Position numbers and translations under genes: made by a program. A stretch of DNA of 64,000 bases from Antedon mediterranea (Eukaryota; Echinodermata; Crinoidea; Comatulida; Antedonidae). The DNA lies in NCBI RefSeq assembly GCF_964355755.1, contig NC_092675.1, positions 997,001 through 1,061,000 of the forward strand, in the 5' to 3' direction. Each line of letters begins with the position of its first letter. The stretch's first letter is position 1. Positions 7,371 through 42,107 of this stretch are shown here, one piece after another. The notes beneath the pieces are model-generated. The model made no database searches. It was not told where the DNA came from and worked only from the letters and a program-made list of their open reading frames with translations.

Positions 7371-7677
7371 AATGAAGAACAATTTTGCTAAAAACTAATT
7401 TAATTTCTCAATTTTTTAGCTCTAGAAACTATTTAATTAGCTCTAGAAACTATTTAATAAGCGCTTCTTCTTTTTTCGATTGTCCTTTTTTCCTGTTTTT
7501 TGTAATTTTTATATGTTGCATTGTTTGTCTTTTTTGCTGTTCTTTCAAAGGACCTCATTGGAAACAAGTCCGTAGAGGACTTTTATGAGTTATCCTTGGC
7601 ATCCTTGTTTTATTTTGGTATTTTTATATTTGCCAATTTTAATTGTATGTCTGTGATATTTTATGTACTGATGCCGA

Positions 7678-8228: not shown

Positions 8229-11200
8229 TCAATTGGGGCTGGGATAATTTAATTTCTTTGCTGAAACATTCACATATACTTGATGTGTGTCATCCTTTAT
8301 CTGTAATTCCTGGTAAGTGGTGTCGTTATTATCTTTAGCACTGTAAGTCGCATATTCCTGTAACTAAAAATAATAAATAAAAATATATGATTGTTATTAT
8401 TTTCTAATTCTGAAATCTAAACATTGACAAATGGAAGACAATGGATTTATTTTTTTTTTATTTTATGTCTTTAGGCAATGTGGCCAAGGATTACCAATAG
8501 TGAATTAATCACTGTCCTATCAGATAGGTGGTAATCCCCCTGATACAGGGGCTATTGTGTGAACCAGTTCACCGGGGTAACCCCCTACTCTTTTTCGAAT
8601 AATGAACTGGGTTTCTTTAAAGTACACACAGGTTATAACTGTGTACACTGGACCTACGGTTTATAGTCCTTATCCGAGAAGACTTGTTCCACCACCAGAA
8701 CTAGGAGCGAGTCGGCCTCGAACCCTTGCCGATGTTGCTGTTGGCTCTTTAGGTACGGTAAACGGCGCCCCTGCCTTAACCGCTCGGCCATATGACTGGA
8801 TGATACCAATAATGATATAATGGTAACTTACTGTAAATAACATTGTAATGTTTTTGTTAAATATGATTATAATATCAATTTGTTTATTATGGGACAGAAT
8901 AAGGGCTTACACCACACCATTCAGTCAATGATGAAGAGGGTGTACAATTGTCTTACCTCTGTTTGTTTATCATCTTTTGATTTGGGTACCTTGAAAATAA
9001 AATAGAAAGATATTTACAACACTTCATTAATATACAGGTTTGTTTTTATTTGTCAAAACATTGAATCTACGTTAATCCATGATGTTTATTTACTGGTAAC
9101 ATTGTCTTACTTATTTGAGTATCTTAAAAACAATAGAAATAAAAGCACATTTACCAATAGAATAAAAGCTTTTTTTAGCATACAATTCTTTTAAATTGTC
9201 ATATTTTGAATTTATACGTTACTTGTGTATTTGATATTCGTACTTTGCTAATTACAAAACATGTGAAAAGGGTTAAGGCAATTCCAATAAGCACACCAAC
9301 AAACATCATTCCAACAACAAAGCTTGCTGGACTCTGCTTTGGAACATCTGAATAAAAAGAGGAACATTATATAAATATAATACAAATAAATAATTTCTTT
9401 GTGGAGAAAACCGTTTTAGGTATTAAAAATTCAGAACAGAAGTCTCATTTTAACAAATCCTGACAAAATAGATTTATTAGCATATTTTTTTCCCTTTCAG
9501 TGAACACATGAAAAAAATAAATGTTGTAAGAATATATCCCAAAGAGCTTAGATTCAAATAAAATAACTGATTGATGTTTGTCAAACTCGGACGTACGAAT
9601 ATTCGATCTATTTAAGAATGTCAAATGTGTTATCATCATATTCGTTTGGTAAACAAACGTAACTCCTAACCTAAACTAGTTGATATAGGAACAATTATCA
9701 TACAGTGAAATATTAGTAAAAGAATTAAACATATCAAATGCGTTTTTATTACCTTCTTCACTAGTTGTTGCATTGACAGTTGTTATTGGTCCTTCTAAGT
9801 ATTGATCATCTTTTAGCTGATGAGTAACAGCACTGATGTTGATAATATAACTTGTGTACGCCTCTAAACTAGTAATGGTATGGCTGGTTTCCGATAACCA
9901 GACAGTCGATTCATCTTCATTTTGAATTTCAGCACACAGACACTGATTTTGAAGTTTATATTTCAGTTTGTAAAAGTCGATCTTACAGTGTTCAGATTTA
10001 GGAGATTCCCACGTTATAGTAATAGAGTTCTTTCGACTTTTCATCTTGACATTTCGGACAGCATCAGGAACTGATACATATATGATATAATTGAAATGAT
10101 AAGAACAAATCTTTATTATGTCAAGTTTGAAGTAAAACTTATTAAATTATATTTTGGGGTGAATTCACAATTCCAACAATACTTTATCATAACCGTCCTC
10201 CTTTACATATATGAGAAAAGTACGGTATAAAGAAAGAGAAAGAGGGAAATAGTAAATTACTAGGTAATCTGTATTGTAACATGCACGATTTTATTCTAAA
10301 TTATAAAGTACGTCTACTACATTTTATGCCAATATATTTCAGTTACATTGTTTCAAAATGTTAACATTACAGTACAGGATTTGATTAACGTAATACGTAA
10401 TCAACATTGCAAACTATTGATAATTATTATTACTGATGTTTATTTTGATTATGAAAAAAAACCCAACTAGGCCAAAATTTACCATTTGCTGCAGTTTCTG
10501 CAGTAAATTCTTCACTCCAAGGACAAAGCTTATCATTGCCATTAGAAGTTCTCACTTGGAAAGTATAAAGAGTACATGGAGATAATGATGTGAATACAAC
10601 TGTGGAATTTGAAACGGTTTTAGAAGTTGTTCCATCAGAGTGTTTTAGTCTTGTTATATAGCCAGTTATTTCTACACAATTAGGTGGTTCCCATGAAAAT
10701 GATAGGTGAGTGTCATGAACATGCACAAGAGACATATTTATTAGTTCACCAGTTGGTTCTAGAAAAATAAGATATCAAATATACATATAAAAATTCTGTT
10801 TACTACAGTATACCAAATTATGCCTTCAAATATACATATATGTATTGTCCCTTCGACTAATTCCAAAAAAATTTGTAAAAAAATATTTCGAAAAAAAGTG
10901 GATCATTTTGAAGTATCATAATAGTTATTAACTTTCACCAAAAATTATTTAACTGAAATACAGACGTTTTTTTGTTAAAAAAATAACTTTGACTTCCAGT
11001 TAAAGTTTTCTATCAAAACATATATCATAATGCAACGCGATTGTTTGGCTACTCTGTATGCATAATCATAAAACTTCCTCGCGATCTGTTTGAAAACACC
11101 TTCTCAACCGTGACTAGTTGTAAACAATCCTAATTAGCATCATGCATAATGCATACACGTGGTTTGAAATCTTTGTTTACTTTCGCTCGCAACGATTTTC

Positions 11201-13243
11201 CAGACGAAATGTAATCAAATTAATTTACCTGTTAATTACGTAAACTTGTTGTTTTTGGCTCAAATTTTTGACGTAAAGCTTTGATATGGCCAATTTAAAT
11301 TTAGAATATTTTGACATTCATTTTTTGTGTTTCAGGGGACAATACATATTTAATTGTTCAAAACATATTCACTGGCTTCGCGAATAAACTTTGTGAATAG
11401 GCCTAAACGGAAGAGGATATTAGTAGCCCAATAAAACAAAATTGACGTACAAGCATGTTTCTGAGTTTAGTTATATAATGAATCAATTTAAATATACATA
11501 TAGAAAAATATAATGTTAAAGTTTTATCTTCAAATAATGTAAACGTAAAAATAAAATACCTAGTACTTTACCTTTAAGCATAGTTGTTGCTTCGATATTT
11601 GCACTTGCAGGCCCCTTTCCACCAACTCCTTCACCCCCTACTGTGAAAGTATATTTTGTACAAGGGGTTAAATTATCTAGCACTACATACCGCTGGTTGT
11701 GTTCGACTGAACCTTCTATGGGTTCACAGTTACCGTGCCTCAATACATAGTTGTATCTATCAATAATACCTCGTCTATGACCACAGGTAATTTCTTCCCA
11801 TGTAAAATTCAATGATCGAACACTGATTGCATCATACGTTATGTCATCTGGTGCTGCATCAGGGGCTACAATGGAAAAGAAATTTTCATTTGGTAACATT
11901 TAGTCTAATTCTCTTATTTTTACCATCAGTATTGGTTGGTAAAGAAAAATTTACTTCTTTCCTTCATAATTTTATTCCTGTCAATATAAAATGAAGAATG
12001 AATATTGCTCTATCTTTGTAGTAAAGTTTCTTACCAATTGTATCCTAATGGTGATGATTCGCTGTTTGTCTGATTTAAACACATTAAATCAAATTACATC
12101 TTACCTTCTTGTTCTGTAGTGTCAGAACCAGTCCTACCAAATCCATAAGTAATATCCCCATTACTTTGGGCTACTCCAGCCAATACAACAACATCGTAGG
12201 TGGAAAATGGTGTTAGTTCTTTTAATATAAACTTAGTCATAGAACCACCAAAACGTTCCATGGTATATTCCAGCGATTCACGTTGACATCCATCAAATAA
12301 TGTTCTTCTGTACTTTATTTGGTACTGAACTATTTGACAATAGACCACATCAGACACTGACCAAGTTACATTCAAACTTATAGATTGATGAGGTTGAACA
12401 TTTACAGATACTGTGCTTGGAGCTATAGTAAAAATTGGTTACGCTTAATGTATAAATTTAAACAAAAATATTGAATATGGTGTCAAGTAAAGTAAAACAA
12501 AAATACTGACAAAGCAAATAGCATATTTGCTGACAATTAGAAACAAGGCCAACAGCCATTAAGTCGCGTGCTACAATGCATAGTGATACCGGACAGACAG
12601 ACCGACAGACAGACCGACAGACAGACAGACCGACCGACCGACATAGTGAACTATACTGACCGAAATTACTGAACATGTTTAAAAATGTTGAAATGTTTAA
12701 AAACATTTATATTTTTTTAATTTACACGTGCGTAGCCTGTCACTTTCGACGTGCTCGTATAACGTAATTTCGAGTTGAAAAGTAAGTCAAGAAAACAGAA
12801 ATCGGGCAAAAAGAATGCGCAATAACATTTAACGCGCAGTGCGCGCGCAAAAATATGCGCACTCATGGCAATTTTGTAAACGCTTAAAATTGCCTGAAAT
12901 GTACTCTTATTTCATCGAAAATAAATTTTGAAAATTTTAAGCGCCCGTACGCATGCGTTACATGCGCTACGCATGTAATTGTATTGCCATATGATGATTT
13001 TTGCCCTGAAATTTATTAGTACCAAATTTTATATAATTGTGATTCATGGTTGTTAAGATATGATTACAAACGTGATTTCGTTAAATCGTGCGTAGACCAC
13101 GTAATTTTTTATTGCGCACCGTGAAAACATAACCACATCGATTCCTGGCCATAAGGAATATTCTGTGAAAAATTGACTTAGCTAGATTAAACTGATATCA
13201 AGATAAGGTCAGAAAGCGATAAAACGCATAGTGATACCGGACC

Positions 13244-13290
<47 letters not shown>

Positions 13291-16200
13291 CGACCAACCG
13301 ACCGACATAGTGAACTATAGAGTCGCTTCCACGCGACTAAAAATAGTGGTTCTTTTTGAAAATGTATTTAAATACAGTATACTGCGCATTTTTAATTTAA
13401 TTTTTTCCTTAGGAACTAACAAAAGTTTTAGTTTTAAACGGAATAATACTAATAAATTGAATAATGTTAATTTACTGAAAACACAAATAGACTTCTTTAC
13501 ATATAAAATTAATGTTGTTAGGCATATTCCAATTATAATGTACAAAAGTGATGTACTTACCTGCAGTATTCATAATAATATCAGGTCCACTACTAAATTC
13601 TCCACAGCCAACTGATGTGCATGCAGCTACCTGTGGTGTCACAATTTCACAGGGGTACACTCCTGTAATTGTTGCATGTTGAGCGGATGTTTCCTCTGCG
13701 CCAATTGTATTTCCATCCTCATCAACAACTTGAACAATGTAATTTATGATTTCTCCTCTCCTTTTTAGACAGGAAACCGAGCCAAAGGTGATCGTGATCG
13801 ATCCAGCAACTTCATTTGTTGCAGGAATGGAAACTTTCCCTTCTATATCTTCTGGGCCATCAATGGGCTCTGTTAAAACAAAGATTGAATATAAAATCAA
13901 CAATATATAAAATACATATACTGTATAAGAAGACTATAAATAACTATAAATAGATCGAGTGTCTTATCTTCATTTTTGCAACAACAAAAATGATACATTT
14001 ACAATTAAACTTACTAAACAAATAAAAAACAATGTGTAAAATCAATGTATTGATCATTTGAGAATGAAATGAATAAAATAGTGGTTAACGCCACAAAAGA
14101 GAAAAAAAAACAATGTGTAAAATTGTTTAATCAAGTAGTTACAGACCTTTTTCATTAGTTGTTGCATTGACAGTTATTATTGGTCCTTCTATGTGTTGAT
14201 GATGAGTGACACTGATTCTGATTTTATATCTTGAATACGGCTCAAGATTACCAATGGTGTGACTGAGTCCTGTTACAGTTTCAGTATCTACAGTATCATC
14301 TTCATTTTCACCACATAAACCCTGATTTTCAAGTTGGTATTCCAATGTGTAGTGTTCAATCTGACAGTGTTCATATTCTGGTGCTTCCCATGTTACCGAT
14401 ATGAATTGGTTTCCACTTTCAACATTGATATTTTGGACAGCATCAAGAACTAATTGAAACAGATTTATAAAGAAAATTAAAAATCATTTTATTCATTCAT
14501 TTTCTTCATTCATTTTACAAACCAGATTGATACTGATGTATACGGAGTGAATAATGTACATTACTTATAATTTCCCTTCCGTAATATAAATCAGCAACAA
14601 TATAATAAACTTCAGGATACTATCAAACTACATTTTTACAATAATTTAACAATTAACAAATGCGTTATATCCTTAATGGTTGAAAATACTAATTCAATGA
14701 ATAAACTTCTTTGCTTTGTCTATTCTTTAATATAATGTGTAGGTAGGTAGGCTTAGACAATCTCCATAGTACTGTAATAATCTTTTTCCTTTAATGTTTA
14801 AATATTTAGTATTCAGATCAGACATGTCTTCTACAACCTTAATAGTTGTGTTTTGCCATTTGGTAATATATAAAACTCATTGAATTTAGATACTGTAAGT
14901 ATTACCTTCTGAATGTGTTATTATTTGAACTGCATCAGAAAATGGTCCATCACCAGCAGAATTGGTAGCTGCAACACTGACATAGTATGTAGTACATGGG
15001 TCCAGATCACTGATACGTGCCATAGTTTCTGTTGCTGATACTGTTATTATTTGTTGTATTCTGTTGTTATTTCCATATCGCAATGTATAGTCACTAAGTG
15101 AATTACATCTCTCTGGACTAATACTTATTGGCTAAATGAGTAGAAAGAGCTGTAACGCTTGGAAATTACTTAAAGTTACAGTACAGTATACTCCACTGGC
15201 GTTAAACAAAAACAATATATTTTAATTAAAGATGTATTGTCCCCCTGAAAAAATAATTCTTAAACAAATTTTTGTTGAATATTCAATTTTAATGCAACGT
15301 AATAGTTATCCACTTAGACCAAAAATAGGATCTAAAAAAATGTATTTACCTGAAAAAATGTAATTAAAAGCACAAAATGGTCAAATTGGCTGCCAGCAAA
15401 TGGATTTTTGGTTGAATTTAACCATTTATTTTGTCATTTTACAAGTGAAAACATTATTGTTTTCCGTTTTTTTTCTACGGAAGTGATTAACTTTATATTA
15501 ACTAGAAAATGAGGTATTCAAAGTCTGATTTGATTAATCTTTATTTTTCATGTTTTTGGGGGACAATACATCTTTAAATGGTAATAGATCTTAGCTGTGA
15601 TCCACTAATACCCAATAGATATCTGAGTTTTCTATCACTGTTTTTGGCTGTTTGGTCTGAAACATACTTGGACAAAATAACACAACTTTACTACCTGCCA
15701 CTGTACTTGTATTTCATTATCAGAAACTGCAGAAACTTGAACATCGGAAGGCATCATGATAGGAGCTAAAAAAACAAACAAACAAAGGTCAATATTGTCT
15801 TTGATTTCGAAAATGAATTATTCAATCGAGAACACAATGGCAATTTATGGATAGCATTTGTACGTGTGTTCGTTTGACAATTTCTTTGTTTTTTGTTGGT
15901 TTTTATGCTATTGCACACATTAAATTGATCGAAATTGTCCTGTGGAGGTTTAATCTGCATCTGAAAAGAACACTGGAATGAAGGAAATCTCAATACATAA
16001 CATTCTTATGTTCATGCAAATGTTTTACTTACGGCGACAAGGAATAGTGAATTGTGTCAAAGGACTGATGCTACCAGTTCCTAGGTTTCCAGGCCGTACG
16101 GCTGCCACACCAAACTCATATTCTACTCCCCGTTGAAAGCCATTATTATTATCTCCATCAATATCTAAAACAATTGACCACCCTGCAACTGTATTAGAGC

Positions 16201-19200
16201 ATGATTCCCAGGTCTCGCCAGTTTGTTGATAGCAGACATGATATCCTATTACAGGGCCGTCTCCATTATCTTCTGATTTTGTCCATTCATTCCACGATAC
16301 TGCCACTGTAGCATTTGATGCTATCACGCTGGGGTTTACTGTCATTACTGGCTGATCTAAAAGTAATATTTATTGAACACAAGTATTACTGATATTTAAA
16401 TATAGTATATGCAGTAACTGGTTCTAGGACACCTACCCCCTAGACAGTTACCCCCCGGATGTTTACCACCCGGACAACTACCCCCTTAGGACATCTACCC
16501 CCCGGACAACTACCCCCGGACAACTACCCCCTTAGGACAACTACCCCCTTAGGATAACAACCCCCCGGACAACTACCCCCCGGACAACCACCCCCTTAGG
16601 ACAACTACCCCTTAGGATAACTACCCCCGGTCAACTAACCCCGGTCAACTACCCCCCGGTCAACTACCCCCCGGTCAACAAAAGTAGACAAATATATAGG
16701 ACCGGTTTCTGTAAAAATGAAATCATCTGTTTTTAACGGGTGTTTCGAAACTAGAGACCCGAGACCAGAGACCTGACACGAGACCCAATACGAAAAGGGA
16801 GACCTATATTTGGGTCTCCCTTTTCGTATATTAGGGTCTCCCTTTTCGTATAGTGTGGTCTCTCTTTTCGTATAGTGGGGTCTCCTTTTTCTTATAGTGG
16901 GGTCTCCCTTTTCTTATAGTGGGTCTCCCTTTTCGTATATTTGGGGTCTCCCATTTTGTATATTTGGGTCTCCCTTTTCGTATAATTGGGTCTCCCTTTT
17001 CGTATATTTAGGTCTCCCTTTTCGTATATTAGGGTCTCCCTTTTCGTCGTATAGTGGGGTCTCCCTTTTCGTATAGTGGGGTCTCCCTTTTCGTACGTGG
17101 GTCTCTCTTTTCGTATTGGGTCTTGGGTATCTGGTCTCGCTAGACCCTAGATGTGCTAGATTTAAAGTACCGTATTTATTGAAAAAACGGCCTAGGCTGT
17201 TTATTGTTTAGGTGGTTTTTAGGTGGACATTTATTGGAAGAAAGTTGTTTATTCAATGGGAGGGGGTTTAATCTAATGGAAATAGACGCCGATTATTCCA
17301 TATGATGTTTCATGGGAGTGACATGGTCACCGTTTATTTGAGGGAAATTTATTTAAAGATCGCCGTTTATTCGGTGAGTGAACATTGAGGTCAAATATCA
17401 AAAGTGATATTATTCTTCAAGTGTACAAAAATACATATAGTATGACAAATTTGAGACAAAAATTAATTCTTTTAAGACCAGTGGTTATCGAAGCATTGTC
17501 CTGACGCAAAAATTATTATTATTATTAGCGAACCCAGTCTTTACCGTAAATACAGGGAGTACTATATAATACGTTCGACTATCCTATGATCATGTGTGAC
17601 AATCTTCAGTTTATACCAGGCTATATTTATGTCAATCTTTTACTTTTGTTTACAATAATGAATAGTAATTCGTCAAAGTAACGAATTAAAATATAGTTAT
17701 TAATTCCTATTATACACTGTTGCAGGCGAGTCAGGTTGTTGAATGGTCTGGGTGGTAGTTGTCCGTCCGGGGGGGTAGTTGTTCTAAAGGGATAGTTTTC
17801 TGGGTGGTAGTTGTCCAGGGGTTAGTTGTCCTACGGAGGTAGTTGTCCTAAAAGATTATTTGCCCTCGGAGTATTGTCCAGGTAGGAGGTAGTTGTCCTA
17901 CGGGGAGTATTGTGTCAGAGGTAGTTGTCCGCGGGGTAATTACCCGGGGGGGGGGGGTGTTAATTCTTCGGGGGTTATTGTCAGGGGGTAATTGTTCCTA
18001 GGGGGTAATTGTCCGGGGGGTAGTTGTCCAGGGGTTAGTTGTCCTACGGAGGTAGTTGTCCTAAAAGATTATTTGCCCTCGGAGTATTGTCCAGGAAGTA
18101 GTTGTCCTACGGGGAGTATTGTGTCAGAGGTAGTTGTCCGCGGGGTAATTACCCTTGGGGGGGGGGTAATTGTCCGGAGGGTAATTGTCCGGGGGTAATT
18201 GTTCCTAGGGGGTAATTGTCCGGGGGGTAGTTGTCCAGGGGGTAGTTGTCCTAAGGGGGTTGTTGTCCGGGGGGGGGGGGTATTTGTCCGGGGGGTAGTT
18301 GTCCTAAAGGGGTAGTTGTCCTAAGGGGGTAGTGGTCCAGGTGGTGGTTGTCCGGGGGGTAGTTTTCCGGGGGGTAAATGTCCAGGGGGTGAATATCCGG
18401 ATACGGCAGTAACTACATAACATAATCAATTAATCTTTTTAAAATGTGAAATAGTGACGATTTCAAAATGAATTGATTCCCTTGTTTGTCTGCGCTCCAG
18501 TCTTATCCCTGATGCTTGCATTTTATTATATTAAAAGTGCTTTGGATCAAACTTTGCAACCAAACGAAAACAAATATGTACAACAACAACAACAACAACA
18601 AAACATTATAATTGCAAATAATAAACAAAATACTTGCCATAAATTGTTACAACTTCCTCAGTTTGTGCATTACCAAAAATACCTGACTGAACCTGACATT
18701 TAAAAACATCGCCTTCTTGAATACTAATACCCTTAAATATTACGATCTTTGTGTAGTTAAATTCTGTTACAGCACCATTCTGAAGAATGACATCACTCGC
18801 GTCCAATACTTGGATATCTTCGTCACTTGGTAGTGGATTAGCCTGGACAATACACGTGAGTGTCAATAATGCCCCTCGGTTGCAGGAAGGATCTTCTAAA
18901 GTGACTTTTGTTCTTCGATATCCATCTGGATAAAATATAAACCAAAATAGAAGAGAGTCTTGCAAAATCTTACATTTATTATTATATAGTGTAAAGCAAA
19001 CAAGGAAACAATTGCTTGAAAAATAAAGCCACATATTCAAATCGGGTAAATCATTCTTTCAGTCGTATTGTGTTATCTTAGTGTCAAAATGACTCACTTT
19101 ACTGCAGTATATACATTTCTTTACATCAATAATGCACGATTTTACTTTTTTAATTTAGACGTTTATAAGGTAGTCACTGCAATAAACAGTGTGAATAAAA

Positions 19201-25200: not shown

Positions 25201-27370
25201 TCTAATGGATGTCCATCTTGAAAAATACCCGCCACAAAAATGCGAGGAGGCCTCGCATTTTCCTATCTCCTCCTACGATAATTGTTTTTAATAGCTGAAA
25301 ACCGGTTGAACAGCTAGAGTACAGCATCATAATGTTGAAGACAGGCCGATTTTCTTTAAAAAATACTATTTTGATAGATTTAATATACGTTTATACAAAT
25401 GTATTGATTTGCGATGAATGGAACATCCCAATCTCTCAGTCTGCCAGAGTTTGGTTTAACATACGGTAGGTAAATATATGGGCCCTTTGAGAATAAACTT
25501 GCAATACTTTGACAATACTGTAAATACCTATTAACTATTGTTGGTCCTCATTTGAATCGAACATAATCTAATAGTACGAACATTCACAGTAAGATTCTTA
25601 CTGTGAATGTTCGTACTGTTAGATTTAATATAAAAATATATACAAATAAACTTTATTACTGAGATTGTGGATAGGCTCTACTGTTAGATATATAAACACA
25701 TTATTATATACAAATAAACTTTATACTGACAGTTCCTTCTCAACGTTTGTATTAATTAATAATTACCAAAAATATAAACGTCGTAGTGGTGTATCGTGAC
25801 ATGTACTTTAATATATCAATCGAATATGACAGTGACAGTTTTAACAAAGTATTATTTATTAAATCACAAATGCTTTACTGTATTTAGAGGTATAGTATTC
25901 ATAGGCCTATAGTAAAATATGAAAAAATATTTCGTTACTTAGTGGATAAAGAATATATTTAAAAATTGTTCCTCTTTGTACCTATCCGCTTTCCCATCCC
26001 TAATGTTACATACAAAACACAAATTGGGTTTCTTTAAATGAGTCCAAATCAAAAATTTGGACTCATTTTGATAAGTTTCTCCTTCGGAAGTAATTCCCAG
26101 GGTGCTAATTTTAGTTGACTACATAAATCATCGTGTCTATTTATTCGTTTCTGTAAACGACAATGTATTATAGTCCTGCGGTACGTACATTTGAAATCGC
26201 CAGTTTTGCTACGCTGAAATTACTGTGTATTCGAGAACCATCTGTGGGCACGACCTAGATGGTACGCGAGGGAAGCGAGCGTACCATCTAGTTTATTTAA
26301 TTTCATTTGAGATAAAATAGTGTTTATAAAGTAATAAAATATATCTATACATATACATTCTCATAAGTTACATACACACATTAATAAATAATGCATGATT
26401 ATGGGATGACATATAATGTATTAAATTACCATGATGTATTAAACTGCAATGAAACAAAATCTATTCAGTTGAGTTTTTTGCTGTCAAAAGTGGAAGAGAG
26501 AGAGAGGGGGGGGGGGGATATATTCAAAGTAATTTTCATTTATAATTAAAAGTGTTATGTGATAAAGTATAAGCAGTGATAGCCACTTGACATTATTTAG
26601 TTGCAAGAGGGAACCAAGCAACTATTATCATTCGTTGGGCGCATTAATTGATGGTCTAGTTTGGAAAAATCTCTTTAGTAGTATTTGGTCTAGCATTTTA
26701 TAGCATCCTGGGGCTGGGCTGGAATGTATTTCTCCGCGGAAATGTCATACTAAGCATATTCTTCTCCCTATCAACAGTACAAATACAATAGAATAGGCTT
26801 AACGCTGTTCTTTTACTACAGTAATGATTGATATTATTCTTATTTTAATCAATATTTTGTACGAGAACTGCAAACCATACTATACAACCAGCACAGGAGT
26901 CACTCCTCGACCATTGCTCTGGTGGTAGAACAGGTCTTTGCGGATAAAGACTTAAAACTGAAGATCCAGTGTACACGTGTGACTCATGTAATATAATGTA
27001 CTTTAAAGGACCCAGTTCATCTTTCGGAAGAGTAGGGGGATTACCCGGCCCCGGTGTACTGGTCAGCCCCGTCGTTGTGGACAGCTCAGTTAGGCTGAAA
27101 GACACAGGTTATTCCACCACCGCATTTAATATTTATGAAATACAATCTTAAATGTCATAAGCATGTTTCTTTGATATAATCGATGTAAGTAGTAGTGATA
27201 TCGGTGGCTTCTTGAAGGTTCAACTTGTAATGTATTTTCTGGTAATTATTTTTAAACCCTCCATCCATCCTACAAAATGGTACAAGTAAATTGTAATGAA
27301 AAAAAAACTTACCATAGGAAAAACCACAAAATATTGATAACAAAACGCAGGTTTTGATTTGAAAGGTCAT
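8229..27370 (-). CDS. Kinase-less Tie-like receptor, long-stalk paralogue (gene A)
   Basis: Exons, 5' to 3': 27313-27370, 24236-24577, 23652-23903, 23009-23140, 20294-20437, 19575-19709, 19346-19492, 18638-18925, 16033-16356, 15695-15765, 14906-15131, 14147-14449, 13561-13869, 12105-12422, 11572-11865, 10483-10758, 9753-10070, 9223-9347, 8957-8989, 8229-8363 = 4230 bp, 1409 aa. Ectodomain exons are almost all phase 1-1, one module each. Order: signal peptide (KTCVLLSIFCGFSYG); Ig-like; Ig with YECYL; four EGF-like (such as CVCPPGFKGQDC); Ig (TCIVQANP...FKCQV); eight FN3 (the second split by a phase-0 intron); TM (SFVVGMMFVGVLIGIALTLF); tail LQEYATY...TTYQELQI...QVYVNVSAK, then stop. Ig-Ig-EGF-Ig-FN3-TM is the Tie1/Tie2 order, but there is no kinase. 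Inferred role: cell-surface ligand receptor signalling through SH2 proteins, or a decoy. Oddities: a GC donor after the third Ig and a decayed mini-exon at 9111-9122. Orthology to Tie is by architecture only. Confidence 0.85.
8462..8799 (-). mobile_element. tRNA-derived SINE
   Basis: On the minus strand the head contains a perfect A box, TGGCCGAGCGG (8780-8790), followed by GTTAAGGC and about 55 bases later a B-box-like GGTTCGAGGCC (8714-8724), as in a Leu/Ser-type tRNA. A tRNA-unrelated body follows, with CCAGTGTACAC, TACTTTAAAG, CCCAGTTCAT and AGAGTAGGGGG. The same body recurs on the plus strand at about 26905-27110. It sits in the last intron of gene A and is absent from the corresponding intron of gene B, so it inserted after the duplication or was lost in B. 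Confidence 0.8.
9111..9122 (-). pseudogene. Decayed cytoplasmic mini-exon of gene A
   Basis: In gene B a 33-bp phase-0 exon (35162-35194) encodes ILKSRDDKRLE. At the equivalent place in gene A the acceptor (TTTTTAAG) and a donor (GTAAGAC) survive but only 12 bases remain between them, ATACTCAAATAA, ending in an in-frame TAA. If included, the tail would stop right after the membrane with ILK. Because both flanks are phase 0, skipping keeps the frame, so I left it out of the model. Confidence 0.75.
10838..11353. mobile_element. MITE with GTATTGTCCC termini, copy 1
   Basis: About 516 bp in an intron of gene A. It starts ATATGTATTGTCCC and ends GGGGACAATACATAT, an inverted repeat of about 15 bp. 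The same termini bound the element at 15226-15577. The interior is non-coding. The flanking TTAA is clear only on the right. Confidence 0.65.
12541..13338. mobile_element. Composite repeat with GTCGCGTGC termini and two GACA/GACC microsatellites
   Basis: It starts AACAAGGCC...AAGTCGCGTGC (12541-12571) and ends AGTCGCTTCCACGCGACT (13321-13338). Near each end lies TAGTGATACCGG, a GACA/GACC microsatellite (12592-12645 and 13236-13306) and GACATAGTGAACTATA. Between them is about 550 bp of CG-rich, non-coding sequence (GCGCGCGC, CGTACGCATGCG). The same end modules, directly joined, make short elements at 19906-20020, 38110-38214 and 50081-50285. This copy looks like the longer relative of those, or two short copies around unrelated DNA. 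Confidence 0.6.
15226..15577. mobile_element. MITE with TTAA ends and GTATTGTCCCC termini, copy 2
   Basis: 352 bp bounded by TTAAAGATGTATTGTCCC on the left and its exact inverse, GGGACAATACATCTTTAA, on the right (perfect inverted repeat of at least 18 bp). If TTAA is the duplicated target, this fits a piggyBac- or Kolobok-type MITE. If only TA is, a Tc1/mariner type. It is intronic in gene A between the two half-exons of FN3 domain 2 (15131-15695). Confidence 0.75.
16420..18406. mobile_element. TU-like fold-back transposon, complete copy with 8-bp target duplication
   Basis: 1987 bp flanked by CAGTAACT on both sides (16412-16419 and 18407-18414; the match is 9 bp if the preceding G is counted). 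The left arm (about 16430-16680) is a tandem array of 15-bp units GGACAACTACCCCCC and variants. The right arm (about 17745-18395) is the inverted array, GGTAGTTGTCC. An inner array of GGGTCTCCCTTTTCGTATA units (about 16790-17125) and about 600 bp of unique non-coding DNA lie between. The left boundary GGTTCTAGGACACC is also where homology begins in the copy at 63487. Sea urchin TU elements are known for long inverted repeats whose outer part is 15-bp tandem repeats and for 8-bp duplications, so I assign it there by structure. There is no transposase. It lies in the intron between Ig3 and FN3-1 of gene A. Confidence 0.85.
18632..18637 (-). other. Non-canonical GC splice donor (gene A)
   Basis: The exon ending ...TTTATG (Ig3) is followed on the minus strand by GCAAGT rather than GTAAGT. 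The paralogous exon of gene B (36738) is followed by GTAAGT. Apart from the T-to-C change the site matches the donor consensus strongly (ATG|GCAAGT), as usual for GC-AG introns. Confidence 0.8.
19906..20020. mobile_element. Short repeat with GTCGCGTGC termini and GACC microsatellite, copy in gene A
   Basis: It has AACAAGGCCATATACATG, then AGTCGCGTGC (19930-19939), a CCAA/CCGA microsatellite, GACATAGTGAGCTGTA and a terminal hairpin AGTCGCGT-TGC-ACGCGACT ending at 20020. AGTCGCGTGC and the final GCACGCGACT are exact inverted repeats. A degraded copy sits in the same intron of gene B (38110-38214), so the insertion predates the duplication. Confidence 0.75.
20582..22411 (+). mobile_element. 5'-truncated non-LTR retrotransposon (LINE) 3' end, interrupted
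   Basis: The coding part runs from about 20600 (VWGNTTELNKNILKRHQ, RAARIVTNN, LACLMYKCVYGLAP) to 20880 and resumes at 22123 (IPKYTLSKMNSSF, GAKIWNNLP, TSFKARYKSHFFS, stop at 22264-22266). This is the conserved C-terminal region of jockey/CR1/L2-type reverse transcriptases (VWGN, KRAARI, GLAP, WN.LP). A 3' UTR and an ATT microsatellite tail (22377-22411) follow. It lies in an intron of gene A, antisense to it. An in-frame stop marks the 5' truncation near 20590. A 1236-bp transposon splits it. It cannot be autonomous. Confidence 0.85.
20881..22116. mobile_element. DNA transposon (non-autonomous) nested in the LINE
   Basis: Termini CAGGGCATCA (20881-20890) and TGATGCCCTG (22107-22116) are a perfect 10-bp inverted repeat. 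GTAACA flanks both sides (20875-20880 and 22117-22122). Removing the element and one GTAACA rejoins the LINE frame exactly (NVT then IPK), which confirms the boundaries. The interior holds several GGAGAGCGA/GCTCTCC and GGAGCGC inverted motifs, a G-run (22003-22010) and no transposase. The CAGGG start is hAT-like, though hAT usually duplicates 8 bp; superfamily unresolved. Confidence 0.85.
22412..23008. other. Intronic sequence of gene A without recognised features
   Basis: AT-rich intron between the LINE tail and the first EGF exon. I see no exon, repeat array or element here. Part near 22900-23000 resembles sequence before the matching exon of gene B. Confidence 0.5.
23208..23247. repeat. 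Perfect 17-bp hairpin
   Basis: ATCAGGGAAGAGTGAAA (23208-23224), a 6-base loop, then its exact inverse (23231-23247). It is intronic in gene A and absent from the otherwise similar intron of gene B. The stem is shorter than a microRNA precursor and no further pairing is evident, so it is probably a snapback mutation or small element. Confidence 0.75.
25013..26010. repeat. About 1-kb duplicated repeat, copy in intron 1 of gene A
   Basis: It starts AATTTACGTAAGGGCAAAAT and ends with CCTATCCGCTTTCCCATCCC and TAATGTTACATA. It is nearly identical over its length to 28459-29484, with a further partial copy at 29485-29870 and an inverted 5' fragment at about 41760-41905. It contains a hairpin GCGAGG-AGG-CCTCGC and an inverted repeat at 25573-25617. 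No long open frame is present, so it is a non-coding interspersed or segmentally duplicated repeat of unknown class. Confidence 0.8.
25573..25617. repeat. 22-bp perfect inverted repeat with one-base spacer
   Basis: Arms at 25573-25594 and 25596-25617 (AGTACGAACATTCACAGTAA...) extend further with one mismatch to TAGATT/AATCTA. The copy at 29085-29105 carries only one arm, so the palindrome formed after the 1-kb repeat duplicated. Confidence 0.8.
26036..26068. repeat. 13-bp perfect hairpin
   Basis: AAATGAGTCCAAA, loop TCAAAAA, TTTGGACTCATTT. It is just beyond the end of the 1-kb repeat copy. No function is evident. Confidence 0.7.
26255..26291. repeat. Palindromic hairpin of a dispersed repeat, copy 1
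   Basis: CTAGATGGTACGC (26255-26267), loop, GCGTACCATCTAG (26279-26291): perfect 13-bp arms. The preceding bases (TATTCGAGAACCATCTGTG) and the hairpin recur at 30785-30848, so it is part of a dispersed element. Confidence 0.7.
26905..27110 (+). mobile_element. tRNA-derived SINE, head-truncated copy
   Basis: The plus strand shares the SINE body seen inverted at 8462-8799: CTCTGGTGGTAGAACAGG, GATCCAGTGTACAC, TGTACTTTAAAG, CCCAGTTCAT, AGAGTAGGGGGATTACCC. The tRNA-like head is not recognisable here and the 3' tail differs, so it is a truncated or subfamily copy. It lies in intron 1 of gene A. Confidence 0.7.
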
Positions 27371-31142: not shown

Positions 31143-31144
31143 TA

Positions 31145-31995: not shown

Positions 31996-32004
31996 TAGAA
32001 ACAT

Positions 32005-33348: not shown

Positions 33349-36300
33349 TTAATTTGTATCTTTCTTTGCTGAAACATTCACATATACTTGATGTGTGTCA
33401 TCCTTTATCTGTATTTCCTGGTAAGTATTGTCGTTGTTTTCTTCAGCATTATTGTAAGTCGCATATTCCTGTAACTAAAAATAATAAATAAAAATATATG
33501 ATTGCTATTATTTTCTAATTCTGAAATCTAAACATTGACAAAGGGATGATACAAATAATGAATGATATGCATAATCATAAGTTAATAATGGTAATTTACT
33601 GTAAATAAAATTGTAATGTTTTTGTTAAATTTGATTATTATATCAATTTGTTTATTATGGGACAGAATAAGGGCCTAAAACGCCACACCATTCAGTAAAT
33701 GATGAGGAGGGTGTACAATTGTCTTACAGAATAAGGGCCTACAACGTCACACCATTCAGTAAATGATGAAGAGGGTGTACCATTGTCTTACAGAATAAGG
33801 ACCTACAACGTCACACCATTCAGTAAATGATGAAGAGGGTGTACCATTGTCTTACAGAATAAGGACCTACAACGTCACACCATTCAGTAAATGATGAGGA
33901 GGGTGTACCATTGTCTTACAGAATAAGGGTCTACAACGTCACACCATTCAGTAAATGATGAAGAGGGTGTACCATTGTCTTACAGAATAAGGACCTACAA
34001 CGTCACACCATTCAGTAAATGATGAAGAGGGTGTACCATTGTCTTACAGAATAAGGACCTACAACGTCACACCATTCAGTAAATGATGAGGAGGGTGTAC
34101 CATTGTCTTACAGAATAAGGGCCTACAACGTCACACCATTCAGTAAATGATGAGGAGGGTGTACCATTGTCTTACAGAATAAGGACCTACAACGTCACAC
34201 CATTCAGTAAATGATGAGGAGGGTGTACCATTGTCTTACAGAATAAAGGCCTACAACGTCACACCATTCAGTAAATGATGAGGAGGGTGTACCATTGTTT
34301 TACAGAATAAGGGCCTACAACGTCACACCATTCAGTAAATGATGAGGAGGGTGTACCATTGTCTTACAGAATAAAGGCCTACAACGTCACACCATTCAGT
34401 AAATGATGAGGAGGGTGTACCATTGTTTTACAGAATAAGGGCCTACAACGTCACACCATTCAGTAAATGATGAGGAGGGTGTACCATTGTTTTGCAGAAT
34501 AAGGGCCTACAACGTCACACCATTCAGTAAATGATGAGGAGGGTGTACCATTGTCTTACAGAATAAGGGCCTACAACGTCACACCATTCAGTAAATGATG
34601 AGGAGGGTGTACCATTGTTTTACAGAATAAGGGCCTACAACGTCACACCATTCAGTAAATGATGAGGAGGGTGTACCATTGTCTTACAGAATAAAGGCCT
34701 ACAACGTCACACCATTCAGTAAATGATGAGGAGGGTGTACCATTGTTTTGCAGAATAAGGGCCTACAACGTCACACCATTCAGTAAATGATGAGGAGGGT
34801 GTACCATTGTCTTACAGAATAAAGGCCTACAACGTCACACCATTCAGTAAATGATGAGGAGGGTGTACCATTGTCTTACAGAATAAGGGCCTACAACGTC
34901 ACACCATTCAGTCAATGATGAGGAGGGTGTACCATTGTTTTGCAGAATAAGGGTCTACAACGTCACACCATTCAGTAAATGATGAGGAGAGTGTACCATT
35001 GTCTTACCTCTTGTTGTTTATCATCTTTTGATTTGGGTACCTTGAAAATAAAATAGAAAGGTATTTACAACACTTCATTAATATACAGGTTTGTTTTTAT
35101 TTGTCAAAACATTGAATGTACGTTAATCCATGATGTTTAATTACTGGTAACATTGTCTTACCTCTAGTCTTTTATCATCTCTTGATTTGAGTATCTTAAA
35201 AACAATAGAAATAAAGGAACATTTACCAATACAACAAAAGCTTTTTTTTAGCATACAATTCTTTTAAATTGTCATATTTTGAATTTATACGTTACTTGTG
35301 TATTTGATATTCGTACTTTGCTAATTACAAAACATGTGAAAAGGGTTAAGACAATTCCAATAAGCACACCAACAAACATTATTCCAACAACAAAGCTTGC
35401 TGGACTCTGCTTTGGAACATCTGAATAAAAATAGGAACATTATATAAATATAATACAAATAAATAATTTCTTTGTAGCGAAAACAATTATCATACAGTGA
35501 ATTATTAGTAAAAGAATTATACATCAAATGCGTTTTTATTACCTTCTTCACTAGTTGTTGCATTGACAGTTGTTATTGGTCCTTCTAAGTATTGATCATC
35601 TTTCAGCTGATGAGTAACAGCACTGATGTTGATAATATAACTTGTGTACGCCTCTAAACTAGTAATGGTATGGCTGGTTTCCGATAACCAGACAGTCGAT
35701 TCATCTTCATTTTGATTTTCAGCACACAGACACTGATTTTGAAGTTTATATTTCAGTTTGTAAAAGTCGATCTTGCAGTGTTCAGATTTAGGAGATGTCC
35801 ACGTAATAGTAATGGAGTTCTTTTGACTTTCCGTCTTGACATTTTGGACAGCATCAGGAACTAAAAGATGAAATAGTAACAAGCAATTCAATACATACAG
35901 TAATATAACTTTTAGCAGATAAATTTAAACAAACAGTGCGATAGGTATTCAATATTGGTTGTATTGTAAAGACTTTAAAAGGAACATTTTACCGATTGAG
36001 TTGGTTACGTCATTAACAATGTTTTTCTATGTTAATGGAATTAATGTTTCACCTAACTGGTGCGTGAAAATAAATAAACTAGTTGATTGTTATGCAACTT
36101 TAATATGGTTTTACTTACGAAGACAAGGAATAAAAAGTTGTGTCAAAGGACTCATGTTAGCATTTCCTAAGTTACCAGGTCGAACAGCTATCACCCCTAA
36201 CTCATAATCTACTCCTCGGTGAAAGCCATCTTCTCCATTAGCCTCAATATTGTAAGTGATTGATAACCCTGTAACCAATTCAGAGCATGGCTTCCATTTC

Positions 36301-39300
36301 TCTGCAGTTTGTCGATAGCAGACAGAGTATCCTATTAGAGGGCCATCTCCATTTTGACCAGTAGCTGTCCATTCATTCCATGATATTGTAACTGTAGAAT
36401 CTGAGACTATTACATTGGGTTTTGTTGTCATTACTGGAGGATCTGAAATGAACTTATAATTAATTTTCGCCAACATTTTAATGGAATTTATTGCAATGAA
36501 AACAATTTAGTTTTGTAGTCGCTTCATATCCACTAGGTAAATGCTCCTATTCGAATTAAATAAATAACAATAATTTGGGTATACAGTAGTTACTAATATA
36601 TATACTTATATACTTGTATAATAGTATATTATATAGTATGTATTATGATCAAGGCAGTATATTGAAAAACAAAACTGTGGCATTTGAGATATTCAAAAGC
36701 AACATCATATCAACAAATACAATCACAGGTCACTTACCATAAATGGTTACAGCTTCCTCCGTTTTTGTATTACCAGAAATGTCTGATTGCACTTGGCATT
36801 TAAAAACATCACCTTCTTTCATATTAATTTCGCTAAACACTATCGTGTTTGTGTAGTTCAATTCTGTAACCGTAGACACACCATTTCCAAGAACTACGTC
36901 ACCGTGTAATACTTTAATGTCTACGTCACGTGGTATTGGATTTGCCTGGATAATGCACGTGATTGTCAATAACGCACCTCGGTTGCTAGAAGGAACAACT
37001 AAATTGACATTTGTTCTTCCGTCTGGGAAACATGAAAAATTAAACCAATTACAATTTGAAATTAAAGAAGAGAGGCTTAGAAAATGTATAAATCTTCTTA
37101 AACTAACTAGAAATACGTAAATTAGGAAAAATGCCTTTATCTTCCTAAATAAATAAATGTAAAATGAATAACATCATCATTTATTTGCTTACCAAGTTGG
37201 CAATCAGATCCTATCCAAAGATGTTTACATTTTCTATCACCACAACTTCCTGTGTTTCTCTCACATGGTCCATAATCTTCACAATGGCACTGGTACTTAC
37301 ATAGATCACCATACCATCCACCAGTACATTCATTAGGAACTAAAATGTTTAACAGCAGATACGATTAAATGCCATAGGCCTAATCTTTATAATGGGATTC
37401 CAAAACAATACATGAATTACAAAGAAATACAAAGTACTAGTTTTGAAGAACAAACTAAACTATTATACCTCATAAATTTCAAGGATCATTAGTTATGAAT
37501 TACATACTTTATATTGGTGAATTAAAGTAGCCTACTTCAATCGCGATGAATATAATAATTAAAATACATTTTGAACGTTCAAAAAATGTATGTATATAAC
37601 ATTATTTTACATATTCTGTTTAGCAACAAATCATAACAGTTTCTGTATGATTTTGAAAAAAAAAATAGTAAGATTGTGTACGATCGAAATACCATAACTG
37701 ATATTAATATATAATAATAATAATATTAAATAAAACAATAATAGCAATGGCGGATCCATAAATATCTGTATATATAATGTCCAAACCTTGACAGTTTTTT
37801 CCGGAATATCCATCCTCACATGGTCCATCTGGACATCCTCTGCTTGGATCACAAGTCACACCAGCTGCACAGTGACATTGCTCGCTACAAGTTGATCCAT
37901 AATACCCTGTTGTTTCACAAGCTGTGGACAATTTAAAAAACAAACATTGTTTCGGCCGTCGTATCGTTTGAAATGTTTTTTTAGAAGTGAAACCTTTGTT
38001 ATGTAATTGTAAACTCTATGCTCATGATTGTTATTAATTTAATTCAGCAACTAGAGAACGTTTAATTTGTGTTAAAGCAATACCTAATACATACATGTAA
38101 CATAATATGAACAAGGCAATATACATGGCTGAAGTCGCGGCTCAAGTTAGTTAGTTTACCGACCAACCGACCGACCAACCAACCAACCGACATAGTGAGC
38201 GTTGCACGCGACTGAAAATTAATTAAAATTGTATTAGATACATTTATTGTATACAATACTAGTACGTGTTATACTAAAAAAAATCGTATTCAACCCTAAA
38301 ATAATTACTTGACAACTTTGTCCATTTGAAGATCAATCTTTTGATTTGATTTTTACTAACAATTAGTTTTCAATATTTAATTATTGATTAGAATAAAAGG
38401 ATAAAATACAGTAATAACCAAAATAATTATATACTTCCTTACTTCCTTTGCAGTCAAGGTCTTTATATCCAGCCATGCAAGAGCATCCTAGTGGGTCTGG
38501 AATACATCCCATTGAACCAGAACAACCAGGATTGCTACTGCTACACACATGGGTACATGTTCTTCCCCAATGGTTATTTCCACAACCTAATCACCAGAAA
38601 CATATTATACAAATAAAGATTGATTATAATTGTAATTAGTAAATTAAAGATTTTAACAATAAATTTCCAAAGAAAAATACAGTTAGTAGTGATAGGAAGA
38701 CATCGATGTGCGATAGCATAGAACAAAATAGAAATTAAAGTAAAACATTATTATTGAATAACTACCTACTTGACTTTCTGAACATAGGTATCTACAATAT
38801 CAGGTATAACTGAAGGAAACATGAAATATGGTGCTTTTATTTCTCTGACCGAAATGTACGAATACGATACAATAGTATTTTTTTTCATAAGCAATGTTAT
38901 AAATGAAATTGTGAAATGTTTGACCATTCTGTATAAAATATAAGTGTATGTAGGCCTACGTGTAAAGTTTGAATATGTTTCAAAGGAAGAATGTTTATTA
39001 ACATTAACATTTCACTTAAAATACCTTCACTACAGTCTTCTCCTTTGAATCCTGGTGGACATACACACAGTCCAGATACATCATCACATATACCACCATT
39101 ATAACAAGTAGGACAGAGGTTCTGGCAATCAGTACCCCAACGAGAGGCTGAGCAACCTGCAATATGAATGATGATGTTTGAATGAACGTTTCACAATTCT
39201 TAAATAATTAAAGCAGTTCATTTTAAAGTATAATCTTTGATAAATAAGAGAAATATGCTATAATCTTCAATTATATCAAATCTATTTAAATAACTATATA

Positions 39301-42107
39301 CATGTTGTACGTTGTTACATTTTGATGGTGAATGATATTCAATTTAGAAATAATGTACCAGTATGTGACTAAGGTGAATAAGTTTTTAAAACGCGAAGAA
39401 TTAAAAAAAAATTGTTCAAAAGTTTTACTTGACACTGCCAATCAAGTAAACAATTTAGACAAAGTCAAGTAGTATATTATATGTATAAGTATTTTATATA
39501 ATTGATTAATCTCTTATAGTTATGTAATTCATTTATTTACCTCTTACAATAAGTCTTACAATGGCGTGTCTACCCTCATGTCTGCTTCCATTTAGATAGC
39601 ATTCATATATACCACCGTCGTCTTTTGTGACATACGGAATTGTGATATTGCTGGAACCAGACCAGCTGTCAATAACATTTCCATCACGTCGCCATCTTAG
39701 ATCATCTAGATCACCTTCCTTCAAATGCATCTTTATTGTAACAGTTTCTCCAAAACTTACAGTTTGTGTTTGCCTTTCCGGTTTGACATATGCTGTAAAA
39801 ACATTACAATAAGAAGTTTTAATACAGTACATCTATTTACGATTATTACATAAACCACTGAAAAGAAAAACAAGCTGTATGTTTGGTCATTTAAGTATGT
39901 GTTGCCCAACAATGTTTAACCAGGAAAAAGGTTAATCGATGTTTTATTAGACATGTGTACATCTTTTTCCTTTGCACTTTAATGTTGCCAACAACATTCA
40001 GTTCATACAGATGTTTAATGAAAATTCAAATATGAAGCTTAATTCATAGAAATAATTTTAAAAGACTAACCTTCCTTTGCTAGTATAATTAAAGGAATGT
40101 ATGACGGTGACGTTTGGTTTCTCAAACCAGTTACATTACAGAAGAAAGCTCCAACTCTGTGACTGCCATCCCATTCTGACAAATATTGCCTGTAATAATA
40201 GCGCTTGTCTCTAAAATGTTTTCCATGTTCAGGTGTATATGATCTTAATTGTATGTTATTACCACTTCCAGTATCAACTACCCGTCCAAATGTTATGCTG
40301 AGTGTTTGTGGATCTTCTATATATTCGATAAAGCTACCGATAAAAGCAGCGTCATATATGGGATCAAGTGAGCGAAGAGGGTCAGCAGTTAAACATGTTT
40401 GATCAGCAATGTCACCTTAAAAAGAAAATAGATATTAAAATGTAAAGTGCAAAGTGAGTTAAATTATCGTGTGTTGAACCCACATTGAAACAGTGTCCAC
40501 CACACGATCAGGAGAGAATGATCCAGTGATTTGTAATAGCCGAAGGCTGGATAGCAATCTTTAGTGCTGTAGCAGTTCAAGAAGTGATTCTCCATGGAGA
40601 GGGAACCAACAAGATGGCGGCTGCAGTTGACCAATCGAATATGCCCTACGCAGTACGCACTACTACGCCTGTGTTGAGCCTATATATGCGTGAGAACGAT
40701 ACGCAACGCAGCGCGTTTAAGCGTATAAAAACGATTCTATATGATCCTCGTATACAAAAAATGCTAGATATACCAAGAAATTATTAATTCCATTGCGATT
40801 AACAATATATTTAATTTTATAAAAACTTCACTGTGCTTTGGCAAGAAAATGTGTTGTAATTTATGTGGTCTTAATGTATTATATTAGATTATTATTTTTT
40901 ACGGCCGATCTTGTTGGTTCCCCCTCCTGTTGGAATCCCTTTCAGTCTGGAGTACGCCCTCTAGCCTTCGGCTTACAGCTCACTGGAATGAACATGCATC
41001 AATGTATACCGTTGTCTATGTTTTGTCGAAAAACAAACTTGGGGAACATGACAGTTCAGATTAGCCCAAGATGATAAAGGCAAGATGCTTGTAAACAAAA
41101 ATCAATAGTAAACATGCAAACATTGATTGATGCAACTTGGGGCTGAGGTACTATAATTATTATTGTCATGCCAAACAACGTTCTTATAGTCCCTCTCAAA
41201 CAGCTCCCGGATGTATGGTGTACTTGGCCCTTTTAGAATAATACTCTTCGTCCCTTCAAGCATGTTCACAATATTAGTAGTAATGATGGCGTATGCAATA
41301 CAAATACACTTTAAGGTTATTTACTTCAACTGCCTATGCAGTTTTTTGTCCATCAATACGCCCTAACCATGCATAGCCTAACTATTTAATAACACAATAG
41401 TACAAACTTACCATAGACAAAAACACAGAAAGTAATAAAATAAGGCAAATCAATCATATAACAGATCATTTGTATAATATATATGCAATCACCTTGTCAT
41501 GTGTTTAGTAGTAGGCCTATGTTTAAAGAACAATAGCTCCTAAATATGTATTGTACGAATTACAACCTTTGAAATTCAGTAAATATATTCAAAACCAAAG
41601 AAAACCATTAAGGAAATAATCTTATCTTTAATCCGGAGATTTATATCCATGGAGTAGTAATATAGAATTGTGTACAAAAATATAAATAATACAATAATTT
41701 ATTCCGAGTTTAGATGATGGGATAGCATTATTAGGCCTATAGTCGTATTCAATAACTAAGTGTTATACCGAATGTCCGAAATGGGATGTTACATCAGGTG
41801 GTTAAAATCAGTACCGAAAGTACGAATCAACTTGATATACCATCGAGTAAAAATTTTAGAAATAACCCGCGATTTACCGAATTTTGCACTTACGTAAATT
41901 TATATATAGATGATGGCGACGTTAATACAATATAATGTTATTTCCTGATACAGTAACCGATGGGCCTAATCGCAGTTTGATATCCCTCCATACTCATATA
42001 ATTTAATTACATAATATTTAATAACTAAACAATAGTACAAACTTACCGTAGACAAAAACACTGAATATCGATAACAAAAGACAAATCTTCATCATATAAC
42101 TGATCAT
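33349..42107 (-). CDS. Kinase-less Tie-like receptor, short-stalk paralogue (gene B)
   Basis: Exons, 5' to 3': 42047-42107, 40071-40415, 39541-39792, 39025-39156, 38443-38586, 37787-37921, 37193-37339, 36738-37022, 36119-36442, 35543-35860, 35296-35420, 35162-35194, 35008-35040, 33349-33474 = 2460 bp, 819 aa, frame closed throughout. Order: signal peptide (MKICLLLSIFSVFVYG), Ig-like, Ig (YECYL), four EGF-like, Ig, two FN3, TM (SFVVGIMFVGVLIGIVLTLF), tail ILKSRDDKRLE, VPKSKDDKQQE, LQEYATY...NTYQEIQI...QVYVNVSAKKDTN, stop. Compared with gene A, FN3 domains 2-7 are missing: only a 258-bp intron separates the equivalents of FN3-1 and FN3-8. Both 33-bp tail mini-exons are intact. The second Ig lacks the usual first cysteine (IKMHL) in both copies. 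Introns are also similar between A and B, indicating a fairly recent tandem duplication or gene conversion. Function is inferred as for gene A. Confidence 0.85.
33655..35000. repeat. 64-bp minisatellite beside a splice donor in gene B
   Basis: About 20 tandem copies of a 64-bp unit (CAGAATAAGGRCCTACAACG, TCACACCATTCAGTAAATGA, TGARGAGGGTGTACCATTGT, CTTA). The right end abuts the donor of mini-exon 35008-35040 (minus strand GAG|GTAAGAC). Because the unit includes CTTACAGA, each copy presents TCTGTAAGACAATGG on the transcribed strand, a partial donor look-alike. Gene A has a single unit at the same place (8893-8956), so the array expanded in B after duplication. Sub-variants (gaccta, gggccta, aaaggcct; tgtctta versus tgtttta) recur in blocks. 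Confidence 0.95.
38110..38214. mobile_element. Degraded GTCGCG-terminus repeat in gene B
   Basis: Paralogous to 19906-20020 and in the same intron: AACAAGGCAATATACATGGC, GAAGTCGCGGCTC, CCGA/CCAA microsatellite, GACATAGTGAGC-GTTGCACGCGACT. The left arm has lost bases and the terminal hairpin has lost one arm (about 11 bp). Confidence 0.7.
40510..41005. mobile_element. MITE-like element with about 95-bp imperfect inverted repeats
   Basis: In intron 1 of gene B. The left arm has CCAGTGATTTGTAATAGCCG, AAGGCT ... GGAGAGGGAACCAACAAGAT (to 40614). The right arm has ATCTTGTTGGTTCCCCCTCC (from 40907) ... AGCCTTCGGCTTACAGCTCA, the inverse order and sequence with mismatches. The centre is non-coding and CG-rich. 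Gene A has no such insertion at its intron 1. Confidence 0.65.
41412..41469 (-). CDS. Alternative or duplicated signal-peptide exon of gene B (exon 1b)
   Basis: ATG at 41469, 58 bases, donor TATG|GTAAGT, ending in phase 1 exactly like exon 1a (42047-42107) and gene A exon 1. It encodes MICYMIDLPYFITFCVFVY-G, a weaker signal peptide because of an internal Asp/Pro. The flanks match those of exon 1a (AATAGTACAAACTTACC on the 3' side), so it arose by local duplication. Either exon can join exon 2 in frame. It could be an alternative promoter/first exon or a decaying copy. Confidence 0.6.
41760..41905. repeat. Inverted fragment of the 1-kb repeat
   Basis: The minus strand matches the first ~130 bases of the repeats at 25013 and 28459 (AATTTACGTAAGTGCAAAAT, CGGTAAATCGCG, CATCAGG-side TGATGTAAC). 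It sits between the two candidate first exons of gene B. Confidence 0.75.

Follow-up and report, generated by a model that had tools for sequence, protein, structure and literature searches.

Two tandem crinoid genes that probably join a Tie-like ectodomain of receptor tyrosine phosphatase type to the membrane and tail exons of an immune-type Ig-receptor array

Tie receptors have already been recorded in an invertebrate deuterostome, the sea urchin, as SpTie1/2 (Stevens 2010, cited in PMC12113024 and PMC6494969), and two further invertebrate systems provide points of comparison. The oyster CgIgIT2 is a precedent among invertebrates for an Ig receptor whose tail is tyrosine-based (PMC11999971), and the amphioxus FrLRR is an exon-shuffled phagocytic receptor, predicted to be GPI-anchored, that acts through Grb2 (PMC10199209). 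A search of the literature covering open-access papers returned no account of receptor tyrosine phosphatases (RPTPs) with Tie-like ectodomains or of a chimera of the type described below.

The stretch of DNA analysed here (64 kb, hereafter the window) corresponds to C6:997001-1061000 of a 354-Mb genome and contains two neighbouring genes on the minus strand, gene A (42095-33349) and gene B (27370-8229), both of which were rebuilt exon by exon to full length with predicted splicing. A preliminary description of the pair had placed it at 8229-42107, correct to within a few bases, and had considered both genes complete, which is borne out by open models, consistent splice phases, and the lack of any premature stop in the modelled reading frame of either gene. 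Gene A encodes 797-815 aa, depending on the choice of TM-exon donor and the use of a cassette exon (JM1), with the module order SP-Ig1-Ig2-EGF1-4-Ig3-FN3-1-FN3-8-TM-JM-CYT-stop. Gene B encodes 1402-1409 aa and has the same modules, except that FN3-1 to FN3-8 are all present (eight compared to two), with the counterparts of FN3-2 to FN3-7 missing in gene A. The order of signal peptide, two Ig domains, four EGFs, Ig, a variable number of FN3s and TM proposed previously is thus confirmed, with two FN3s in A and eight in B.

Gene A starts with a signal-peptide exon (42047..42095; start codon at 42095; MMKICLLLSIFSVFVYG, donor GTAAGT, phase 1), followed in the spliced model by the exons for Ig1 (40071-40415) and Ig2 (39541-39792, with Ig Pfam matches), both of which have homologous exons in gene B and in an RPTP gene of the same genome (P1, see below). 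The four EGF exons of the model (39025-39156, 38443-38586, 37787-37921, and 37193-37339) include the three that, together with Ig2, match Tie2, and are followed by Ig3 (36738..37022; 70% identity with the P1 Ig3), FN3-1 (36119..36442; spliced model and Pfam), and the last FN3, FN3-8 (35543..35860), in which 99 of 105 residues are the same as in FN3-8 of gene B. The TM exon (35296..35420) is homologous to the TM exons of an array of two-Ig receptors on C8, and in both A and B the donor of this exon was set after ...VRISNTQ based on a comparison with that array. Downstream are a possible 33-nt cassette exon, JM1 (ILKSRDDKRLE; 35162..35194; AG/GTAAGA borders, phase 0), which in gene B is interrupted by TAA, the 33-nt microexon JM2 (VPKSKDDKQQE; 35008..35040), homologous to the array microexon APTSKNANQSE, and a cytoplasmic exon bearing four tyrosines and the stop (33349..33474), which the C8 array also has. 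In gene A, the JM2-CYT intron is filled by a 64-bp minisatellite of ~21 copies (33662-35007), the units of which contain donor-like GTAAGA and acceptor-like TTGTAG words; gene B holds a single related unit.

In gene B, the signal-peptide exon (27313..27370; start codon at 27370; MTFQIKTCVLLSIFCGFSYG, donor GTAAGT) precedes Ig1 (24236-24577) and Ig2 (23652-23903), both recovered in the spliced model and by Pfam, four EGF exons (spliced model; 23009-23140, 20294-20437, 19575-19709, and 19346-19492) and an Ig3 exon with a GC donor (spliced model; 18638..18925). The FN3 domains, all modelled and matched by Pfam, consist of FN3-1 (16033-16356), FN3-2, which is split over two exons (15695-15765 and 14906-15131), FN3-3 to FN3-6 (14147-14449, 13561-13869, 12105-12422, and 11572-11865), which are collinear with P1, FN3-7 (10483-10758), and FN3-8 (9753-10070). 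The TM exon (9223..9347), the 33-nt JM2 microexon (VPKSKDDKQTE; 8957..8989), and the cytoplasmic exon with four tyrosines and the stop (8229..8363) were assigned by homology to the array, the last also from the gene model. The introns of both genes are GT-AG throughout, apart from one GC-AG intron after Ig3 of gene B; those of the ectodomain are in phase 1, with the phase-0 intron within FN3-2 of gene B as the sole exception, and those 3' of the TM exon are in phase 0. Pfam models for fn3 and Ig domains exceed their cut-offs in both genes, and the EGF models fall below theirs. The tail after the TM measures ~60-75 residues, such that the short tail and stop noted earlier are retained and the length of 75-85 residues given for it is not.

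Several other elements of the window lie around or within the pair. The flanks carry exons that by eye resemble transporters of the SLC15 (peptide) and SLC16 types, at 3196-7600 on the plus strand and 45315-47895 on the minus strand, and positions 20-1313 are occupied by tandem 95-bp units with a higher-order period of 482 bp. The final intron of gene B contains a tRNA-Leu-like repeat (~8670-8850) that recurs at other loci in the genome and is probably a SINE; ARAGORN called no tRNA in the 64-kb window.

The ectodomain of the pair had been described as Tie-like, and this holds: for Ig2-EGF1-3 of gene A the best solved structure is Tie2 (2gy5; E 7e-41). The reported absence of a kinase downstream of the genes or in the spacer between them was reproduced, as tblastn of the 64-kb window with the genome's own Tie-kinase and PTP exons detected neither type of exon (best E 0.13). 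As a positive control, these queries correctly retrieved the loci from which they were taken, elsewhere in the genome. Genome-wide scans with PF07714 and PF00102 likewise placed nothing in the window among the best candidates scored. The Pfam model Ig_Tie2_1 (PF10430) reached its cut-off nowhere in the genome, with two weak matches pointing to a true Tie kinase gene and to an RPTP. This kinase-bearing Tie, which the preliminary description had suggested looking for, is a separate gene at C6:15.0718-15.1103 Mb, with Ig1, Ig2, three EGFs, Ig3, FN3 domains, TM, kinase exons, and the tail TYVNVENNEGFTYVDI. Its kinase matches Tie2 at 4e-102 (344 bits, compared to 204 bits for FGFR) and its Ig2-EGF3 region matches Tie2 at 2e-51. 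The complete single-exon kinases on C6 (L009 and L010) are distinct from the Tie gene and by eye are ROR- and MuSK-like.

Searching the genome with gene A revealed many Tie-like ectodomains, of which that of P1, a two-domain RPTP at C6:8.298-8.352 Mb, is closest to A and B. After its EGF/Ig part, P1 has FN3s collinear with gene B, additional FN3s, a PTPRU-type membrane-proximal domain, a TM, and PTP D1 and D2 exons. Across Ig2-EGF1-EGF2, the identity of gene A is 83% with P1, 67% with a further paralogue, P2, 40% with the Tie kinase of this genome, and 36% with human Tie2, and gene B retains the order of the P1 FN3s with identities of 73% (FN3-3), 80% (FN3-4), 62% (FN3-5), and 65% (FN3-6). In a tree based on one alignment of 10 sequences, A, B, P1, P2, and other paralogues are set apart from the Tie kinases, with moderate support for the group of A, B, P1, and P2 (88/88). 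A clade of A and B with the Tie kinases was rejected (p-AU 0.0075), a value computed after the tree had been seen, for a grouping that was the preliminary description's own hypothesis.

That A and B are paralogues of the Tie receptor tyrosine kinase that lost the kinase, as originally proposed, is compatible with the shared order of Ig, EGF, Ig, and FN3 modules and with the Tie2 match at E 7e-41, but a non-Tie family provides the better match (P1), there are four EGFs as opposed to three, the genome retains its Tie kinase as a separate gene, and the identities and the rejected clade noted above count against it, leaving an origin by kinase loss highly improbable. The identities and the tree instead place A and B, as far as their ectodomain is concerned, in a family of RPTPs with a Tie-like ectodomain. 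A second such RPTP, with five EGFs, is present at C6:7.24 Mb, and PTP exons occur ~6-14 kb downstream of Tie-like ectodomains, on the same strand, at C5:7.77, C5:7.84, C5:8.05, and C6:30.45 Mb, where the pairing was read from coordinates and the genes are known as co-located parts. A TM and an RPTP-like membrane-proximal region are present in P2 (C6:19.606 Mb); no PTP exon was found in the 17 kb downstream, and P2 may likewise lack a catalytic domain. The FN3 exons at the P2 locus (C6:19588200-19616199) form a long series of near-repeats, and by eye a paralogue with a Tie-like ectodomain at C8:15794000-15803999 has C-type lectin-like sequence after its FN3 exons.

The 3' ends of the two genes have different relatives. 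A search with the TM and tail matched A, B, and 56 places at C8:1.117-1.629 Mb, all on one strand, and nothing else; 47 of the tail matches in the C8 array have E<0.01 (best 9e-7). The array was sampled in three stretches and in 18 short tail regions. In the three stretches, its genes are compact, with two Ig exons (Ig_3 and V-set in Pfam), a TM exon, a 33-nt microexon, and a tail exon, and because some copies are broken the figure of ~50 members counts tail exons, not working genes. The TM exons of A and B share 73-77% DNA identity with the array across ~119 bp, and there is likewise a DNA-level match to the array for the microexon and the tail exon, with equal intron phases, while by eye the TM of P1 is unlike that of gene A. 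Where the array ectodomain consists of two Ig domains, that of A and B is Ig-Ig-EGFx4-Ig-FN3. Four tail tyrosines are invariant in 19 of 19 tails (A, B, and 17 from the array), in the contexts YxTY, YQx(L/I), and Y(V/L)N(V/I).

As the genome has a separate Tie kinase, the closest relative of the pair is an RPTP, and the 3' exons are homologous to the C8 array, A and B are best interpreted as fusions, and it is likely that they represent tandem copies of a gene joining an RPTP-type, Tie-like ectodomain to the TM and tail of an immune-type Ig receptor. The phosphatase half would have been replaced by three exons of the two-Ig array type, namely TM, the 33-nt microexon, and a cytoplasmic exon carrying the tyrosines, with the putative junction at the phase-1 intron 5' of the TM exon and FN3-8 presumably spliced to TM as modelled. 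The presence of broken members in the two-Ig array allows for an alternative in which A and B are degenerate RPTP copies, truncated ectodomain genes located by chance 5' of independent TM and tail remnants of two-Ig genes, with no joined protein produced, and the differences between A and B in the 3' module are few for judging constraint. Both genes, however, have kept the order FN3-8-TM-JM2-CYT with matching phases and frames free of premature stops, and the FN3-8-TM intron of gene A is just 122 bp with no Ig exon within it, making such remnants an unlikely explanation.

The relationship between the two copies varies along their length, with 59-66% identity in Ig3 and FN3-1 (36119-37022 in A; 16033-18925 in B) and 94-95% in FN3-8 and TM, a difference that suggests a mosaic history or gene conversion. 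Overall dN/dS between A and B is 0.50; that of the 3' module, 0.78 and derived from very few changes, does not demonstrate constraint in this module and counts against the fusion interpretation.

The tails of A and B contain NTYQEI or TTYQEL and QVYVNV with an ITAM-like spacing (9). These tails fit neither the strict ITIM ([ILVS]xYxx[ILV]) nor the strict ITAM (YxxL/I-x(6-12)-YxxL/I), with V at position +3 of the second motif and N, T, or Q at -2, a mismatch that likewise counts against the proposed interpretation. YVNV is a Grb2-type SH2 site. Upon binding of a ligand, a Src-family kinase could phosphorylate YQE(L/I) and YVNV, and the phosphorylated sites could then recruit SH2 proteins, through which ligand recognition by an RPTP-type module would lead to the output of an immune receptor in place of a phosphatase output. 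Of the roles suggested for the pair previously, signaling through SH2 proteins is supported as far as motifs suited to such recruitment are concerned, with the recruitment itself predicted from them, and between a decoy and an immune-type receptor it is the immune-type option that gains support, from the tail held in common with the C8 two-Ig array. A decoy or adhesion receptor, in which the joined protein would compete with full RPTPs for ligand and the tail would have no signaling role, is in keeping with the absence of a catalytic domain and with EGF modules near-identical to those of P1 (EGF3 88-93%, EGF4 82%), but a pure decoy would not need a conserved tyrosine tail common to ~50 other receptors (as tail exons), and we consider this role very unlikely. 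The 0.5-Mb C8 array itself is a candidate innate immune receptor repertoire, an immune role being suggested by its form alone. The loop of Tie2 that touches angiopoietin aligns to a gap in gene A, and thus binding of angiopoietin by A is not predicted.

A broader proposal, considered somewhat more likely than not, is that one Tie-like ectodomain module has come to serve three outputs in one genome (kinase, phosphatase, and immune-type tyrosine tail), the output having been changed more than once through domain swapping and once with an expanded immune-type Ig-receptor array. If A and B are spliced as modelled, the same recognition module would be wired to a kinase, a phosphatase, and an immune-receptor tail in a single genome, which bears on the origin of Tie receptors and provides a natural way to test what is recognised by the ectodomain they share.

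Compared with known systems, CgIgIT2 and FrLRR differ from A and B in having no RPTP or Tie-like ectodomain. Tie1/Tie2 (TEK) and SpTie1/2 share with the pair the order of Ig, Ig, EGFs, Ig, and FN3s and a recognisably homologous Ig2-EGF3 region, whereas A and B have no kinase, four EGFs rather than three, and another number of FN3s, and are nearer to an RPTP. The RPTPs with a Tie-like ectodomain (P1 and the gene at C6:7.24 Mb) are closer, with the 83% identity of gene A over Ig2-EGF2, the EGF count of P1, and the collinear FN3-3 to FN3-6 of gene B, but A and B are without the PTPRU-type membrane-proximal domain and both PTP domains and have a different TM and tail. The C8 two-Ig array, although its ectodomain of two Ig domains is without EGF or FN3, shares with A and B the TM exon, 33-nt microexon, and cytoplasmic exon, with all four tyrosines and the intron phases.
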